From positions 1-37,689 of the forward strand of contig JAJDZJ010000119.1 in NCBI GenBank assembly GCA_022824685.1: DNA of 37,689 nucleotides. The letters run 5' to 3'. Below the pieces are notes generated by a model. It was not told the DNA's origin. It saw nothing but the letters and a program-made list of their open reading frames with translations, and did not search any database. The position numbers and the translations under genes were made by a program. Below, piece by piece: positions 19,497 through 32,578 of this stretch. Numbering within the stretch: the stretch's first letter is position 1; each line of letters opens with the position of its first letter. The DNA comes from Caldilineaceae bacterium (GTDB taxonomy: Bacteria; Chloroflexota; Anaerolineae; Caldilineales; Caldilineaceae).

Positions 19497-20216
19497 ATGA
19501 CTCGATCAAGCAAAAGCCGACAGAGAGAAAGACCAAACCAGGGCAGACGATTTAGCAAAGTAGGTCTGTACCTGATCGCCGGCGTCGTCGTCCTGGCCTG
19601 TGTAGTTGCCGTCGTATTGGCTGGGACAGCAAATGAACAGGAGCCCGCGGAACAGGCGCTAGACTATTCTGGCATCCCCGCGGCGTGGCAGAACCGAAAC
19701 GTGTTGGGCGACCCCGATGCCCCTGTTACCGTGCAAGCGTGGGAGGATTTCCGCTGTCCTGCATGCGCCGCATTCAATCAGCGGGTCAAACCGGGACTTG
19801 TGGAAAACTACATAGCCAGCGGCCAGGTGAAGTTGGAGTTCCACCACTTCCCTCTGCAGCAACATGAGCCCGGCGCCTCTCTGGCGGCGCAAGCGAGTGA
19901 GTGCGCCGCCGACCAAGGACAGTTCTGGGTCTACCACGATCGAGTTTTCGAAGCGACCGCCTCAGGGCCAAGCGCATTCCTGATGGAAAGATTGATCGAC
20001 TATGCCGCTGAACTGGAGCTCGACGAGGCCTCCTTCACCTCCTGCCTTACCAACCAGACGCACCTCATCACCATATCGGAAAGCCTCCAACAAGCTCGGA
20101 CTGATGGCCATAACAGCACGCCAACAGTTCTTGTGGACGGTGTCCGCGTTGACAACCCGCTGGACTACGATGTAGTCTCCGCGGTGATCGACGAGCGGCT
20201 GTCTACGGGACAATGA
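19497..20216 (+). CDS. Membrane-anchored DsbA-family thiol oxidoreductase
   Basis: Extracytoplasmic disulfide-forming oxidase of the thioredoxin fold, 239 residues. A basic N-terminus and one membrane helix (about 22-44) anchor it; the catalytic CPAC is at 87-90 in EDFRCPACAAF, and the cis-Pro loop is STPTVLV near residue 208. Two more Cys (SECAADQ and FTSCLTN) match the extra structural pair common in DsbA homologues of Actinobacteria and Chloroflexi. Its stop overlaps the start of the DsbB-like gene (ATGA), so the pair is translationally coupled: DsbB should re-oxidise this enzyme. The preceding promoter at 19356 starts the unit. Confidence 0.93.
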   Translation: MTRSSKSRQRERPNQGRRFSKVGLYLIAGVVVLACVVAVVLAGTANEQEPAEQALDYSGIPAAWQNRNVLGDPDAPVTVQAWEDFRCPACAAFNQRVKPGLVENYIASGQVKLEFHHFPLQQHEPGASLAAQASECAADQGQFWVYHDRVFEATASGPSAFLMERLIDYAAELELDEASFTSCLTNQTHLITISESLQQARTDGHNSTPTVLVDGVRVDNPLDYDVVSAVIDERLSTGQ

Positions 20217-21148
20217 GAGCCCAACCTCTTCCTATGAAAAGCGCACGGTTCTGGTCCAAACTAGGACTTTTCGGGTCCCTCATCGCTGCATGGACTGCGA
20301 TGATGGGCAGTCTCTACTTCAGCGAGGTGAGCGGCTTCACGCCGTGTACACTCTGCTGGTATCAGCGCATCCTGATGTATCCCCTCGCCGGCCTGCTGGC
20401 CTTCGGTATCCTGCGTCGGGACAGCCACCTTCCCCACCTTGTGCTGCCTTTTTCATTGTTGGGGCAAGGCGTCTCCGTCTATCACTTCCTGTTGCAGAAG
20501 ACGCCCTACCTCGGTTCTCCGTCCTCCTGTGGAGTCGGCGTAACCTGCACAACGGTTTGGATTGACTGGTTCGGGGTTGTGACGATTCCTCTCCTGGCCA
20601 TGGCCGGGTTCATGATCATCACGACCGGCATGCTGATCGTTATCGCAGCCGATTCCGGAGGCGCCGGGATGATCGGAACGTATCGGTGGCCGCGCTGGCC
20701 CGTGCCTCTGATCGTGCTGGCCGTCGTTGGAATCTACCTGGCTGGCTCCTACCGCGCTGGGAAGGTCTACTTTTCGCTGCCCGCGATGGATATTCCCACA
20801 CTCGAAGATCTGCCTTTCATCGATCTCTCGGCTGACCCCACTGCGACGCCCGGACCGACCCCTACACCCACAAGCATGGAGAATGGCGAAGCCCTGTATT
20901 CTCAACAGTGCGCGTCCTGCCACGGAGAAAATGGCGAAGGCGCAGACGGGTTAGGTACCGCTCTGGCAGATTCTCCTTACGTTTCGGGCCTGACGGACAG
21001 CGAAATGATGGCGTTGATCCGGAATGGTCGCGCAGCCGGGGCGCCAGACAACCGAACGGGCGTAGCCATGCCGGGCAGCGGGGCCTCCGCTAATCTGACT
21101 GATGAACAGATTGTCGACATAGTGAACTACGTAAAATCCTGGCAGTAA
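20213..21148 (+). CDS. DsbB-like quinone-linked oxidoreductase fused to a C-terminal c-type cytochrome domain
   Basis: A 311-residue two-domain membrane protein. Residues 12-145 are DsbB: four helices, the first Cys pair in TPCTLCWYQR (Cys45, Cys48) with the Arg that DsbB proteins use near the quinone, and the second pair at Cys106 and Cys112. A fifth helix lies near 163-180. After a Pro/Thr linker (about 207-221) comes a c-type cytochrome of about 90 residues: haem-binding CASCH (233-237) and a probable axial Met in VAMPGSG (286). DsbB normally passes electrons from DsbA to quinone; here a haem domain on the outer face is attached. The ATGA overlap with the DsbA gene supports pairing. The fusion is the unusual point. 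Start ATG 20213; Met8 is an alternative. Confidence 0.9.
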   Translation: MRAQPLPMKSARFWSKLGLFGSLIAAWTAMMGSLYFSEVSGFTPCTLCWYQRILMYPLAGLLAFGILRRDSHLPHLVLPFSLLGQGVSVYHFLLQKTPYLGSPSSCGVGVTCTTVWIDWFGVVTIPLLAMAGFMIITTGMLIVIAADSGGAGMIGTYRWPRWPVPLIVLAVVGIYLAGSYRAGKVYFSLPAMDIPTLEDLPFIDLSADPTATPGPTPTPTSMENGEALYSQQCASCHGENGEGADGLGTALADSPYVSGLTDSEMMALIRNGRAAGAPDNRTGVAMPGSGASANLTDEQIVDIVNYVKSWQ

Positions 21149-21251
21149 GATTCTTCGCCGCGACCAACCGGCATTCAATCAGAGTGCTTCTGGCCGGCGT
21201 CCCCAGAAATGCCGGCGCCGCCTGTAGAAACACCAAAGGACCTAGTTGCGC

Positions 21252-22151
21252 ATGACAGGACGTAGCCTTACTCTCCTTACAATTCAGAGATGTTCATTGC
21301 GAACTGTGTCCTTCAATCTAGTCTTCATTTTCACACTGGCCCTGTTAGGGCTTGTGCTTGCATCCGGCACTTCGAACGCGGCCGAATTGCAGGACAGCGG
21401 TAGAGCCCTTGGCGATCACGGCCCAGGAGTCCGGTTGGACAGAGTACAGGCTCCGGTTGGGCAGACGGGTCAGTCAGGCATCACCTCTCCCGCGCCCGGC
21501 AGCACCGTAGCCGGACCTGTCCCCATCATTGGAACGGCAACGGGCTCGTCATTCGCCCGCTATGAGCTTTCTTTCAAGCAGGAGCCGAGCGGAGAAGAAG
21601 CCTATTCATATTTTGCCGGCGACACTCGGCAGATCGTCGATGGTCAACTGGGAGTCTGGCAGACCGATGTACTCCAGCCGGGCACGTATACGCTGCGCAT
21701 GCGGGTCGTGCGCCCGGATGGAAACTATGGGGAATTCTTCGTTCCGAACATCACCGTTGGCAGTGAGCCCGCAACGCCCACCCCTGACGCGCCTACTGCT
21801 ACACCCATACCGATCGATACGCCCACCCCTTACCCGCAGCCAACCGTTCCAACCGTCCAGGTCGAGCAGCCGAATATCGGCGGAACGGCCGACGAACCGA
21901 CAATAACGCCACCGCCTCCCTCCCAGAATACGGGAGGAGACGCCTCCGGGGAACAGGCTTCAACATCCGGCCAAGCAGCGATAGCGCCCCAACCTGGCAT
22001 TCTCGGAGACCTGGGCGAATCGCTGTCTTTGGATCGGCTGCGGGCGCGCTTCTTCACAGGGGTACGCTGGAGCGCCGGTCTCTTTTTGCTGCTCGTAGCA
22101 GTTTTCGCCGCCAAACGCCTCTTGGAGTGGGTCGTCGCCAAGAATGAGTAG
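21252..22151 (+). CDS. Cell-surface protein with Ig-like domain, Pro/Thr stalk and C-terminal membrane anchor
   Basis: A 299-residue exported protein of unknown function. An N-terminal hydrophobic segment (about 21-38) ends near SNAA and looks like a signal sequence. Residues 75-165 form a beta-rich domain (ITSPAPGSTVAGPVPIIGTA, then YTLRMRVVRPDGNYG), similar to Ig-like or Gmad2-type domains of bacterial surface proteins. A Pro/Thr stretch (about 172-230) acts as a stalk, and residues 275-295 form a membrane helix with a positive end. The start is ATG 21252 or TTG 21246; AGGA lies 11 or 5 bases upstream. It lies 100 bases after the DsbB-cytochrome gene on the same strand, so it may be co-expressed. 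Confidence 0.75.
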   Translation: MTGRSLTLLTIQRCSLRTVSFNLVFIFTLALLGLVLASGTSNAAELQDSGRALGDHGPGVRLDRVQAPVGQTGQSGITSPAPGSTVAGPVPIIGTATGSSFARYELSFKQEPSGEEAYSYFAGDTRQIVDGQLGVWQTDVLQPGTYTLRMRVVRPDGNYGEFFVPNITVGSEPATPTPDAPTATPIPIDTPTPYPQPTVPTVQVEQPNIGGTADEPTITPPPPSQNTGGDASGEQASTSGQAAIAPQPGILGDLGESLSLDRLRARFFTGVRWSAGLFLLLVAVFAAKRLLEWVVAKNE

Positions 22152-22523: not shown

Positions 22524-24818
22524 GTGATCAAGTCGACCTTGCGGATTCATCGCGCGGCAATTGTCATTGTAGTGGTGCTCTCCTGGTCTATGTCATCAGG
22601 AGGAACCGTTCGCGCGCAGTCGTTGCAACAGGAACTTCTGGAGTCGCCATCCCTGACTGCCGCCGCCGCGGGAGCTACCGCAATCGAACTCAGTTGGACC
22701 CCTGTCACAGGCGCCGCAAGGTATGTACTTTGGGTGTGGTTGGACGACGGGACAGGCTGGCAGCAGCTGGACAGGGGCGACCTTACTGAGACGTCCTTTA
22801 ACCATTCCGGCCTGACCGCGGGGAGAACCTACTACTATGTCGTCGCCGCCATAGACAATAGCGGTGTAAGGGGCGAATGGTCACGGCAAACGTCCGTGAC
22901 ACTGCCCACGACCTCGCAGCCGCTGCCTGCGCCAGTCGTTACAGCGACGAATTCTGGGGCAAATGCAATCGCTGTCAGCTGGAACCCGGTCGCGGGGGCT
23001 TCCAGGTATGAGCTGTGGGTTTGGGTGAACAAGGAAAGCGGATGGCAGCAACTAGATGACGGCAGCCTGACAGATACGAGTTTTTCCCACACAGGGCTTT
23101 CGGCAGGCAGCACGTACTACTACACGGCTGCCGCTGTGGACGCGAACGCGCTGCGCGGAGCCTGGTCGACCCCGGTGTCGGCCACCGTTCCCGGAACATC
23201 AGGCAATTTAGATGCCCCGACGCTGACCGCGACATCCCTGCTGACATCCTCAGTCGAACTCAACTGGACGGCCGTGCCCAATGCCTCCCGGTACGTGCTC
23301 TATACTTGGTTGGATGCTTCCACCGGCTGGCAGAAGCTCGACGACGGCAGTTTGACGGCGACAGTGTACGTACACAGCGGTGTGACCTCCGGGCTAACCT
23401 ACTACTACACAGTGGCGGCTTTGGACAGCAACGGTGTCCTGGGGGCGTGGGCGCAGAATGCATCAGTTACCGTGCCTGAATCCCCGGCGAATCCGGACCT
23501 TCCGGCGGAAAGGGCGGCCCTCTCGGCACTCTACAACGCGACGGATGGACCGAACTGGGCGAGGAACGCCAATTGGTTAAGCGAGTCTTCGATCGCAACC
23601 TGGCACGGAGTGGTCACAAATGAAGAGGGCCGCGTTATCGAGCTTACGCTCGCGAGCAACGGGTTGCAGGGGACGATTCCAAACCTGAGCGCGCTTACAG
23701 AGCTCAGAATCCTCTCGCTCGGTTCAAACCGCCTGAGCGGGTCGATTCCTGTTTTGAGCCATTTCACCAAGCTGGTGGCCCTTGACCTCGACTCGAATCA
23801 GATGACTGGCTCGATCCCCGACCTGGCAGCATTGACTGCGTTGGAATGGTTGTCCCTTAGCAACAACCAGCTTTCGGGCCAGATTCCGGCACCGGGATCT
23901 CTCACAAGCCTTACAGTTCTCGACCTCAGCAACAACCAGTTGACAGGGTCCATCCCGGCGGTGAACGCGCTCACCCAACTTGGAAGCCTATCCCTGTCCG
24001 GCAACGAACTGAGCGGCTCCATTCCAGATCTGAGCGCGCTAACTGATCTGACAGACCTTCACTTGGGCGCCAACCAGCTGAACGGTTCGATACCGGATCT
24101 GAGTAAGCTGGCCGGCCTGAGATCGCTTTCTCTGTCAGACAATGAGCTAAGCGGCGCAATTCCGAATCTTGGCAACCTCAGCAATCTGACTGTTCTGGAG
24201 ATTGGCAACAACCAGCTATCGGGCAGCGCGCCCGACCTGAGCGCCCAAGTCGGTCTCAGGTTATTGAATCTGGGCCACAACCAGCTGAGCGGCGCCCTCC
24301 CTGACCTGAGTGGGCTGACCAACCTGACTGAACTATCCCTGTCCAACAACCAGTTTACAGGGTCAATCACGCATCTCAGTTCGCTATCGAAACTTACCTG
24401 GCTAGATCTGAGCAACAACCAACTGACTGGGAGCCTCCCCGATCCCAGTTCTCTGACCGAACTCACGCGACTGGACCTGAGCCACAATCAGCTGTCCGGA
24501 ACGATTCCCGTTCTTAGCGCCCTCTCAAAGCTGCTCCATCTGAATCTCGGCTCGAACAAACTGACGGGAACTGTGACCAATCTGAGCCCGCTCACCAGCT
24601 TGACCAGCCTGATTCTTGCGTCAAACCGGTTGTCCGGTCCGGTTCCGGACCTGAGCGCCCTCGTAAAGTTGGCGACCCTGGACCTTTCCGCGAATCAGTT
24701 CTGCCTGTCAGCAGATTACGACCTAACAAGCTTGGAGCCGAGTGTGGCCGCCCATCTAACCAGCTTGAACCTTCCGGATTGCGCGGCGGGGCAGCTCTTC
24801 GGTCCTTCTGCGGGATAG
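22524..24818 (+). CDS. Secreted fibronectin type III - leucine-rich repeat protein
   Basis: A 764-residue exported protein. A signal peptide (about 1-31, ending VRA) precedes three fibronectin type III domains (about 40-127, 135-224, 232-320), each with a shared WQ(Q/K)LD(D/R)G motif and TYYY strand. A capping segment (ALYNATDGPNW) leads to 15 to 16 leucine-rich repeats from residue 371, every one exactly 23 residues, of the LxxLxLxxNxLSGSIPxL type common in plant-like and some bacterial LRRs. The C-terminal 26 residues are a short cap with two Cys (FCLSA, PDCAA). No membrane anchor or sorting motif is seen, so it is released or bound by another protein. The GTG start at 22524 has a weak ribosome site. 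Likely a surface adhesion or binding protein; target unknown. Confidence 0.9.
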   Translation: MIKSTLRIHRAAIVIVVVLSWSMSSGGTVRAQSLQQELLESPSLTAAAAGATAIELSWTPVTGAARYVLWVWLDDGTGWQQLDRGDLTETSFNHSGLTAGRTYYYVVAAIDNSGVRGEWSRQTSVTLPTTSQPLPAPVVTATNSGANAIAVSWNPVAGASRYELWVWVNKESGWQQLDDGSLTDTSFSHTGLSAGSTYYYTAAAVDANALRGAWSTPVSATVPGTSGNLDAPTLTATSLLTSSVELNWTAVPNASRYVLYTWLDASTGWQKLDDGSLTATVYVHSGVTSGLTYYYTVAALDSNGVLGAWAQNASVTVPESPANPDLPAERAALSALYNATDGPNWARNANWLSESSIATWHGVVTNEEGRVIELTLASNGLQGTIPNLSALTELRILSLGSNRLSGSIPVLSHFTKLVALDLDSNQMTGSIPDLAALTALEWLSLSNNQLSGQIPAPGSLTSLTVLDLSNNQLTGSIPAVNALTQLGSLSLSGNELSGSIPDLSALTDLTDLHLGANQLNGSIPDLSKLAGLRSLSLSDNELSGAIPNLGNLSNLTVLEIGNNQLSGSAPDLSAQVGLRLLNLGHNQLSGALPDLSGLTNLTELSLSNNQFTGSITHLSSLSKLTWLDLSNNQLTGSLPDPSSLTELTRLDLSHNQLSGTIPVLSALSKLLHLNLGSNKLTGTVTNLSPLTSLTSLILASNRLSGPVPDLSALVKLATLDLSANQFCLSADYDLTSLEPSVAAHLTSLNLPDCAAGQLFGPSAG
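23634..24668 (+). repeat. In-frame LRR-coding repeat array, 69-bp period
   Basis: Fifteen consecutive repeats encode 23 residues each with no insertion or deletion, so the DNA has an exact 69-bp period over about 1 kb. The core NQLSG/NNQL codons are the most conserved. This is a coding repeat, not a CRISPR or satellite. Confidence 0.85.
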
Positions 24819-30054: not shown

Positions 30055-31161
30055 TCAGTTGGTCGAGAGCTTCCCTCGTAGCCGCACGTACTGCGCATAG
30101 TCAATCTCGATTCGGCGACCGATGTAATCCTGTGTTCGAGGAGCCCTTCTTTGGGCGCCTGCAATCAGATTGGTCGTACGCAGAAGGAATGCGTCGGAGC
30201 CTGCCCCGCTGCCGTAACTTACCGCCAAAACCAGCTGTTCTTCGGCAGCGACGTCGAGAACGGCGGTGAGGCCGATGAGCGCTGAACCGGCATAGGTGTT
30301 GCCGATGTCTCCCACCAGCATTCCGATCTTCCACTGCTCCTCATTGAACCCCAGCGCGCGCATCGCTCGAACAGGAAACTTGACGTTTGGTTGGTGCACG
30401 ACCACATGATCGATATCCGCGGCAGTCACTCCTGTTTCCCGCAACAACTGTTCGGCTGCGGGGATGACATGGCCGAAGTATCCCGGGTCCCCGCTGAATC
30501 GTTCCGCATGGCTTGGATATTGCGCCCCGGGCCGGCGCCAAAAGTCCGTCGTATCTGAGACATAGCTAAGGCTTCGCTCAATGACGGCGACAGATCGGTT
30601 CGCTGCCCCTAGCAGAATTGCCGCGCCGCCCGCCCCGGCTGTGTATTCCAGGGCGTCACCCGGACGGCTCTGCGCAGTGTCCATTCCGATTGCCATCGCG
30701 TACGGGGCCATTCCGCTCCCCACGAGTCCGATTGCGCCCTGCAAAGCTTCCGTTCCAGCTTTGCAGGCGAACTGCCAGTCTCCTGCCTGGGTGGCGGGTG
30801 TGGCGCCGATCGCTTCTGCCACGATTGTGCCGGTCGGTTTCACTGCGTAGGGGTGGCTCTCACTGCCCACCCAAACTGCCCGGATGTCCTTTGGATCGAC
30901 CTGTGACCGCGCAAGCGCATTGCGGGCCACTTCGATACTCATGGTCGCTGTGTCCTCGTCAAGCCCTGGCACCGCCTTCTCCTTTACCGGGCTGGCTGCG
31001 GACTCCGTTCGGTGAATTGCTCCCTTCACGCTGGTCTCACGGTCCTCTACACCGATCTCGCCCATCCAAATCCGGCTAATCTCTGCGCCCGGCAGGCGAA
31101 AACGCGGAACATAGGCTCCGTATCCGACAATCCCTACTTGCCTAACTGGTTGATTTAACAT
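30055..31161 (-). CDS. Hydroxymethylglutaryl-CoA synthase (archaeal-type)
   Basis: Condenses acetyl-CoA with acetoacetyl-CoA to HMG-CoA, the first dedicated step of mevalonate synthesis. From ATG 31161 the protein has 368 residues, of the thiolase superfamily. Catalytic residues are read as Glu101 in VGSESHPYAVKP, the nucleophile Cys133 in QFACKAGTEAL and His in VVVHQPNVKFP. The DEDTATM and SESHPYAVKPT signatures resemble archaeal enzymes rather than eukaryotic or Gram-positive MvaS. AAGAGG lies 7 bases before the ATG. The HMG-CoA reductase gene ends 43 bases upstream, so the two form an operon. The archaeal thiolase and DUF35 partner genes are not present next to it. Confidence 0.93.
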   Translation of the reverse strand: MLNQPVRQVGIVGYGAYVPRFRLPGAEISRIWMGEIGVEDRETSVKGAIHRTESAASPVKEKAVPGLDEDTATMSIEVARNALARSQVDPKDIRAVWVGSESHPYAVKPTGTIVAEAIGATPATQAGDWQFACKAGTEALQGAIGLVGSGMAPYAMAIGMDTAQSRPGDALEYTAGAGGAAILLGAANRSVAVIERSLSYVSDTTDFWRRPGAQYPSHAERFSGDPGYFGHVIPAAEQLLRETGVTAADIDHVVVHQPNVKFPVRAMRALGFNEEQWKIGMLVGDIGNTYAGSALIGLTAVLDVAAEEQLVLAVSYGSGAGSDAFLLRTTNLIAGAQRRAPRTQDYIGRRIEIDYAQYVRLRGKLSTN

Positions 31162-31204
31162 GCGTATGCCTCTTGGGGAAAGTTCTGGCTGGCCGCCCTG
31201 CACG

Positions 31205-32578
31205 TCAGTTGTCTGTATCTCGCAGCAGTTCCCTGGCCCGTTCCACTCGGATGGTACCTTCCGACACCAGCTTGCCGGCGATCACTTCGACCGCCATTCC
31301 TTGTGCGCCCGCGGACACGGCTACCTGGCGCGCATGAAGACGCATATGGCCCTTCTGAATGCCTATGGTCGCTAGGGCCCGAAGGGCAGCCAGATTCTGT
31401 GCCAGACCCACAGCGGCCACGATTTCGCTTAGCCTGGCAGCGGCGCCGGACGGAGGCGCCGCCGCTTCGTCACCATTTGAACAAGGCCGAACGTGGGCCT
31501 GGCCGTCATTCACGCCGGCGTCCAGCCCCAGAATTTTCAACGCGATACGGGACGAGGGATGGCTCTGGGTGGCCCCGCCCACAGTGCCGACCGCCAGCGG
31601 CATTTCGAGGCGGCCATGCAACAGCTCCGAACCGGGCGCGCCCTGCACATGCCAGCTGGTGAGAGAACGGTACTGCCCGTCCCGCGCCGCCCAGGCGTGG
31701 GCCCCGGCCTCCACCGCCCGCCAATCGTTTCCGGTCGCCAAAAGCACGGCGTCCACACCGTTGAAAATGCCCTTGTTGTGTGTTGCAGCTCGGTAGGGGT
31801 CCGCGTAGGCGAACGCGCTCGCTTCCGCGATCCGATGAACGACTTCGCGACCAGGAAACTCGACGCTGTCAAACGCGTTGGCGGGTATCTCGACCTCTGC
31901 CCAGGCGCGCCGCTTGTCGCTCAAGTTCGATAGAATCCGCAATCCAGCCCGACCCCCTGTGAGCTGTTCCAGAAGCGGCGCGACGGCTTCAGCGGACGTA
32001 TTGGCAGCGTTTGCGCCCATGGCGTCGCGGCAGTCGATGAGAAGGTGAACGACTAACATGGGTCCTGCGGGCGTGTCCGGCAGATGCCGCACCTCAATGT
32101 TTTGCGGGCCTCCACCCAGGCGCGTCAGCGATGGGCTGGTTTCGGCGCATGCCAAAATCTGTTCACGTGCCGCAACTATCTCTTTCTCCGCCTTGCAAGG
32201 ATCACCCACATCCAGTAGCTGAACTTGGGCGATCATGACCGGTCGAGTGCTTCCTGCCGAGATGCCCCCGCCTGCCCTCGCAAGCAGGGCTCCAAAGCTG
32301 ACCGCCGCCACCACTGACGGCTCTTCCACCGCCATGGGAACCAGGTAGTTCCTGCCGTTGATCAGGAAATTGGCGCCGATTCCCAGCGGCAGAGCAAACC
32401 GCCCGACGACGTTTTCGATCATCGCGTCGGCTTCCTCGGCGCCGATACTCTCAGCCAGGAGCGCCGTCTCTGCCCCGCTCAGCTCCGCCCAGCCAGCAAG
32501 AATCTCCACGCGGTCGCTCAGACCTCTCCGATAGAAGCCCTCGAGTCTCGAAGAACGACAGTCCTTGTTAACAGTAAT
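31205..32578 (-). CDS. Class II hydroxymethylglutaryl-CoA reductase with probable ATT start
   Basis: Reduces HMG-CoA to mevalonate, or the reverse, depending on physiology. Class II motifs: Glu in ENVVGRFALPLG, IDCRDAMGANAAN, the catalytic Lys in THNKGIF with Asp 16 residues later in ATGNDW, and His in KGHMRLHAR. No ATG, GTG or TTG lies upstream of a GTG at 32509, yet the frame continues with GFYRRGLSDR, the aromatic-LS-Arg pattern expected at the N-terminus of this class. An ATT at 32578 is preceded by GAGGAGG at 6 bases and the first stop upstream is at that same leader, so ATT is the likeliest start (457 residues). HMG-CoA synthase follows after 43 bases. Confidence 0.9.
   Translation of the reverse strand: MTVNKDCRSSRLEGFYRRGLSDRVEILAGWAELSGAETALLAESIGAEEADAMIENVVGRFALPLGIGANFLINGRNYLVPMAVEEPSVVAAVSFGALLARAGGGISAGSTRPVMIAQVQLLDVGDPCKAEKEIVAAREQILACAETSPSLTRLGGGPQNIEVRHLPDTPAGPMLVVHLLIDCRDAMGANAANTSAEAVAPLLEQLTGGRAGLRILSNLSDKRRAWAEVEIPANAFDSVEFPGREVVHRIAEASAFAYADPYRAATHNKGIFNGVDAVLLATGNDWRAVEAGAHAWAARDGQYRSLTSWHVQGAPGSELLHGRLEMPLAVGTVGGATQSHPSSRIALKILGLDAGVNDGQAHVRPCSNGDEAAAPPSGAAARLSEIVAAVGLAQNLAALRALATIGIQKGHMRLHARQVAVSAGAQGMAVEVIAGKLVSEGTIRVERARELLRDTDN

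Follow-up and report, generated by a model that had tools for sequence, protein, structure and literature searches.

A DsbB–cytochrome c fusion protein in Chloroflexota, a putative DsbA-oxidizing enzyme with an electron exit

In a bacterium of the family Caldilineaceae (Chloroflexota), a membrane thiol oxidase of the DsbB type and a class I cytochrome c are encoded as a single protein. The gene lies in a window of 37,689 nucleotides (the whole stretch of DNA analyzed; contig JAJDZJ010000119.1), to which all positions below refer. The DsbB family itself is known; what is new is its combination with a class I cytochrome c. Judging from sequence comparisons, the fusion is rather likely to be the cell's DsbA-oxidizing membrane enzyme, equipped with a built-in exit for electrons.

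The gene and its two domains

Positions 20213–21148 of the forward strand form a single open frame of 311 codons without interruption. Both Pfam domains fall within it, which bears out the preliminary description, where a DsbB and a cytochrome had been read in one frame. DsbB (PF02600) matches ORF residues 22–121 with E 6.9e-11 (43.2 bits against a curated cut-off of 22.1), and Cytochrom_C (PF00034) matches residues 223–309 with E 5.5e-13 (50.5 bits against 21.3). The best NCBIfam match is PRK03113, the BdbC-like disulfide oxidoreductase subfamily (134.5 against a cut-off of 124), and VKOR is absent among the Pfam matches of the protein. By every sequence test available, the protein is a DsbB and also a class I cytochrome c.

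The gene had been thought to start at 20213 and to overlap the upstream dsbA by four bases (ATGA). The real start is likely 20234, since the shared start methionine of 13 of the 13 closest relatives corresponds to M8 of the window ORF, and since a gene 92% identical to that of the window (L033) has no start codon at the position of M1. This start leaves 17 bases between the end of the dsbA stop codon (20216) and the fusion gene. The overlap is thus probably not real and, the upstream start not being conserved, it is rejected as a sign of translational coupling; positions 20213–20233 probably comprise the end of dsbA and a spacer outside the protein. The DsbA-like nature of the upstream gene is itself confirmed by its Thioredoxin_4 match. 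Residues are numbered here from 20234, so that the cysteines first listed as C45/C48 and C106/C112 become C38/C41 and C99/C105 (Table 1). Both pairs, as well as the Pro/Thr-rich linker, the CASCH site, and the methionine, are located where they had been described.

Table 1. Features of the fusion gene and its immediate neighbors. A1 is an alignment of 19 fused proteins from two families (f1 and f3, see below).
Feature	Position	Strand	Basis
DsbA-like thiol oxidase gene, membrane-anchored thioredoxin fold, CPAC at about 19755–19766	19497..20216	+	Pfam Thioredoxin_4 (PF13462) E 1.7e-34, DSBA E 2.7e-8
Start codon of the preliminary description and seven further codons	20213..20233	+	Not conserved as a start
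DsbB–cytochrome c fusion gene, 304 aa and stop (likely start)	20234..21148	+	One open frame; full-length relatives; A1
DsbB (BdbC-type) four-helix domain, residues 1–142	20234..20659	+	PF02600, PRK03113
First Cys pair, C38-x-x-C41 (E. coli DsbB C41/C44)	20345..20356	+	Aligned to 2hi7; invariant in A1
R45, four residues past CxxC (E. coli R48)	20366–20368	+	Aligned to 2hi7; invariant in A1
H84 (E. coli H91)	20483..20485	+	Aligned to 2hi7; invariant in A1
Second Cys pair, C99-x5-C105, second outer loop	20528..20548	+	Invariant in A1
Fifth transmembrane helix, about residues 156–174	20699..20755	+	Hydropathy, 70 fused loci; predicted helix 157–174 (low-confidence model)
Pro/Thr-rich linker	20756..20866	+	Sequence
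Class I cytochrome c domain, residues 212–304	20867..21145	+	PF00034; fold matches
Haem attachment site CASCH, C226–H230	20909..20923	+	CxxCH invariant in A1
M279, probable axial haem ligand, motif AMPxxG	21068..21070	+	Met-Pro invariant in A1
Downstream gene, secreted protein, weak Ig-like match	21246..22151	+	Big_7 below cut-off; neighbor conserved in Caldilineaceae

In the DsbB half, C38, C41, R45, and H84 align in phmmer with C41, C44, R48, and H91 of E. coli DsbB (2hi7), while E47 of the E. coli site is replaced by Q44 in the window protein. These four residues, together with C99 and C105, are invariant in 19 of 19 aligned fusions. In E. coli DsbB, R48 and H91 act in quinone reduction (PMC11208910). 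From the topology of the family, both cysteine pairs would face the outside of the cell.

The two halves are separated by an additional hydrophobic stretch. The DsbB chain ends inside the cell after four helices, and c-type cytochromes receive their haem outside the membrane; a fifth helix would return the chain to the outer side and place the C-terminal haem domain there. Such a helix, already noticed in the preliminary description, is found between the DsbB part and CxxCH in 70 of 70 fused loci (some of which are the same gene counted twice). It also occurs in 14 of the 57 loci scored that lack CxxCH, mostly from other families, and thus may predate the fusion.

Within the haem domain, C226, C229, H230, and M279 are invariant in all 19 proteins of A1. 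A downstream methionine motif is present in each of 44 distinct fused sequences, and M279 is the probable distal haem ligand. AlphaFold2 models of 15 fused sequences are of low confidence (mean pLDDT 47.7), with the haem domain mostly at about 50–83, and only this domain was compared with solved structures. It superimposes on solved cytochromes c with Z of about 10 and rmsd of about 2 Å over 80–90 residues; the fold matches include the haem arms of three-domain nitrite reductases (NirK), cytochrome c6, and ActE of the Chloroflexota alternative complex III.

Both domains are clearly under purifying selection, as judged from median dN/dS values (Nei–Gojobori, 15 sequences) of 0.067 for the DsbB part, 0.205 for helix 5 and the linker, and 0.147 for the cytochrome part, all of them rough estimates with many pairs near dS saturation. 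Helix 5 and the linker are the least constrained part, and of the two domains, the cytochrome shows the faster evolution. Two genomes deviate from the common pattern: in one fused relative (G330, locus L069), CAACR replaces CxxCH, so that the haem histidine has become arginine, and in one family member (G335, locus L091), the DsbB part and the fifth helix are followed by an unrelated tail without the cytochrome part. Both losses may reflect sequence error or decay.

Distribution and repeated pairing with cytochrome c

Scanning 84,980 species genomes with near-exact peptide patterns, a procedure that finds close relatives only, returned 14 relatives, all of them full-length and from Chloroflexota (13 are titled Caldilineaceae). 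The same dsbA-like gene lies upstream of the fusion at every one of these loci. The DsbB sequence of locus L044 is the same as that of G333, a genome of the window's family, and the fusion is present on two single-contig chromosomes (OY282376.1 and OX638330.1). A stop or a frameshift between the two domains, proposed at the outset as the observation that would count against the fusion, was looked for in the relatives, and the fusion survived. An assembly artefact or a frameshift was also considered and rejected, since dozens of independent genomes carry the fusion.

In the window's family, the Caldilineaceae (f1), a match over both domains is found in 44 of 46 genomes, including that of the window (G000; 5.2 Mb, about 99% complete); no match was found in G322, whose genome is 85% complete. 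A second family (f3) shows the same architecture in 23 genomes from a wider sample of the class; there, the fused gene is not beside a dsbA, and one genus (g291) has a plain DsbB. The architecture recurs in a genome of a third family (G485, f4). In a sample of 301 genomes from the phylum, only five, the window's own included, match over both domains, and most other matches represent plain DsbB or a separate cytochrome c. Within Chloroflexota as surveyed, the fusion is therefore characteristic of two families, with scattered occurrences in others. Most of the remaining families seen in the phylum normally have DsbB without a cytochrome, which indicates that DsbB can in general work without the haem. 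No relative was found in viral contigs scanned with the alignment; among plasmid records, 240 matches were obtained, of which none reached 80% coverage of the query, and the 25 listed of these 240 correspond to the DsbB part only.

The preliminary description had asked whether such a protein was already described and common. It is common, in two families of one class; a description of a DsbB–cytochrome c protein was not found in text searches of an open-access library. Nor are cytochromes mentioned in a phylogenetic survey covering VKOR and DsbB.

A single DsbB (PF02600) is present in 29 of the 30 genomes examined; where the fusion occurs, that single DsbB is the fused one. VKOR (PF07884) was not found in any of eight f1 and f3 genomes tested, G000 among them. 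With one DsbB and no VKOR found, the fusion is the only DsbA oxidase of these two kinds detected in G000. In families f8 and f9, VKOR is present in four of four genomes tested.

The fusions of f1, f3, and f4 are referred to here as type 1. Their DsbB tree requires several changes and is poorly resolved, with long branches; a single origin is possible, as the cytochrome tree leaves it open. A separate observation concerns the window's genus (g1). No second close copy of the haem domain was seen there above threshold, whereas a separate cytochrome c lipoprotein is retained by many of the family's other genera; in g1, the fused domain may have replaced that lipoprotein.

A second fusion is found in family f8. 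The DsbB–cytochrome protein of G592, used as a query, retrieves full-length proteins with 62–68% identity in G676, G679, and G680 (two copies in the latter). The cytochrome c of this fusion is of a different sequence type (CTACHSL). In the DsbB tree, the f8 fusions fall into a single, supported clade surrounded by unfused DsbBs of f8, apart from the Caldilineaceae fusions; on this phylogenetic evidence, the f8 fusion arose separately from the Caldilineaceae type. In the three f8 fusion loci with sequence past the gene (L101/L143–L145; G592, G676, and G679), the gene for Sco1/SenC, a cytochrome oxidase assembly factor, follows within a few bases.

Aside from fusions, f8 contains adjacent-gene arrangements. 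In four genomes of genus g12 (G144, G398, G439, and G682), an unfused dsbB is directly followed by a gene for a cytochrome c lipoprotein, whereas the gene order in G422 is dsbA–cytochrome c–dsbB. Cytochrome c has thus been associated with DsbB in at least three separate ways, an argument that the pairing serves a common function. Natural sets for comparison are available in the convergent second fusion and in the gene pairs that are not fused. The order of dsbB and an adjoining lipoprotein gene is that of loci L117 (5001–5867), L151, L152, and L024. In G398 and G439, the cytochrome gene resumes without a change of frame immediately behind the dsbB stop codon, an arrangement that resembles a precursor (or a split form) of the fusion.

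Proposed function and competing readings

The genome of the window (G000) carries two Cytochrom_C_asm (PF01578) genes for haem attachment, ten matches to c-type haem domains, and one haem-copper oxidase subunit I (COX1). Next to the latter lies COX2, in which the CuA motif (CAELCGTNHSGM) is intact and a haem domain is lacking. The haem-attachment genes and the CuA oxidase make it plausible both that the fused domain acquires haem and that an oxidase consuming cytochrome c is at hand.

According to the mechanism proposed here, reduced DsbA, the product of the upstream gene, would give two electrons to C99/C105, from which they would move to C38/C41 and then, as in DsbB, to a quinone held by C41, R45, and H84. 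The haem domain, carried outside the membrane on the fifth helix and the flexible linker, would take electrons singly from the bound quinol and deliver them either to a cytochrome c or to the CuA oxidase. The expected quinone of Chloroflexota is menaquinone, a weak oxidant for thiols. The presumed gain is that DsbB would have an acceptor of high potential for its re-oxidation, in addition to the quinone pool.

An electron exit is favored because DsbB and cytochrome c were joined repeatedly, both halves are constrained, the additional helix would put the haem outside, and the quinone site is intact. The preliminary description had suggested a direct route from disulfide formation to a cytochrome oxidase. 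The route is supported by the comparative evidence, i.e., the second independent fusion, the adjacent-gene versions, the haem ligands, the sole copy, and the CuA oxidase. The word "direct" does not stand if a bypass of the quinone is meant, given that the equivalents of R48 and H91 are invariant in the 19 aligned fusions. Conservation of the quinone site suggests that quinone is still used, so that the haem more likely acts as a second step than as a way around the quinone. From general redox considerations, electron flow the other way, from haem to thiols, is unlikely.

A further-reaching proposal can be made only tentatively, as a serious possibility: the protein may be a bacterial DsbB acting as a thiol:cytochrome c oxidoreductase in one polypeptide, with the quinone as an internal relay only (or unneeded), which would have arisen at least twice in Chloroflexota in parallel to mitochondrial Erv1.

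The strongest alternative to an electron exit is that the two halves have unrelated jobs, an ordinary quinone-reducing DsbB serving as the anchor of a general electron carrier (e.g., between complex III and the aa3 oxidase). The nearest free relatives seen for the haem domain, the monohaem cytochrome c lipoproteins of Chloroflexota, fit this explanation, as do the fold similarities to the general carriers cytochrome c6 and ActE. Moreover, since g1 lacks a second close copy while several other genera have a separate one, the fused domain could have assumed the role of the lipoprotein. The repeated independent associations weigh against this explanation: DsbB acquired two different cytochrome c domains in independent fusions, and further cytochrome c genes lie adjacent to it, which would not be predicted for an arbitrary anchor. 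We therefore regard it as unlikely.

It is quite improbable that the haem domain is a redox sensor or governor, in which the state of the haem (responding to oxygen, NO, or the level of the cytochrome pool) tunes DsbB with no exit of electrons. Haem held by a thiol oxidase could indeed report the state of the respiratory chain, and the sequence is compatible with such a role, but the His/Met ligand pattern, with its invariant methionine, is that of electron carriers, no output or signaling domain is present, and the flexible linker suits a moving carrier.

A role in the assembly of cytochromes or of the oxidase appears very improbable. The enzyme would then set the thiol state of CuA, Sco1, or apocytochromes, with the haem domain as a substrate or a docking part. 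Sco1/SenC does follow the f8 fusions, and a study in E. coli describes an interplay of DsbA/DsbB with cytochrome c maturation (PMC3420020). However, the neighbors of the fusion in Caldilineaceae are dsbA, the Ig-like protein gene, pth, and mfd rather than oxidase or haem-assembly genes, and the COX1 and CcsA-type genes are found on contigs other than that of the fusion.

Finally, a non-functional fusion, accidental read-through, or an assembly artefact is scarcely credible: the loss of the haem histidine in G330 and of the cytochrome part in G335 would agree with it, but the fusion is present in dozens of independent genomes, with dN/dS of about 0.15 in the haem part and invariant ligands.

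Relation to known systems and genomic surroundings

The fusion resembles the known BdbC/DsbB proteins in its four helices, the CxxC and short C-x5-C pairs, the arginine and histidine of the quinone site, and the dsbA gene next door. It differs from them in the added fifth helix, linker, and outer c-type haem domain, as well as in the replacement of E. coli E47 by glutamine. The closest free homologues of its haem domain, the Chloroflexota cytochrome c lipoproteins, are, unlike the fusion, lipid-anchored and separate and have no DsbB part.

VKOR is a quinone-reducing membrane thiol oxidase that re-oxidizes DsbA, and VKOR–DsbA fusions exist. They belong to a different family, and the part fused there is thioredoxin-like and not a haem domain.

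Redox enzymes that carry a class I cytochrome c in frame, as an arm for electron transfer, also include heme-Cu NirK and C1-C2-NirS, the latter exemplifying how Chloroflexi fuse cytochrome c domains to nitrite reductases (PMC8756737). In these enzymes, the haem feeds the enzyme, whereas the haem of the DsbB fusion would carry electrons away; moreover, the latter haem is joined to a thiol oxidase that is an integral membrane protein.

In descriptions of oxidative folding in bacteria, the electrons drain into the quinone pool. Erv1 of mitochondria is a FAD enzyme unrelated to DsbB. In the Erv1/ALR relay, electrons from thiols reach cytochrome c and its oxidase (PMC3848088). The fusion would similarly pass thiol electrons to cytochrome c and then to cytochrome oxidase, with the difference that the cytochrome c of Erv1/ALR is a separate protein. 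Disulfide formation may thus be tied directly into the respiratory chain, as it is in mitochondria, though with different parts. If true, some bacteria would couple disulfide formation to cytochrome c like mitochondria do, by unrelated parts, and it becomes a testable question how organisms that have only low-potential quinones maintain the oxidized state of their thiol oxidase.

Two other regions of the window may be mentioned. Positions 22524–24818 encode a large secreted protein with a fibronectin type III domain and many leucine-rich repeats. On the reverse strand, at 30055–32509, a gene for HMG-CoA reductase lies beside that for an HMG-CoA synthase-like protein whose C-terminal domain is of the ketoacyl-synthase III type; the pair suggests genes of the mevalonate pathway.
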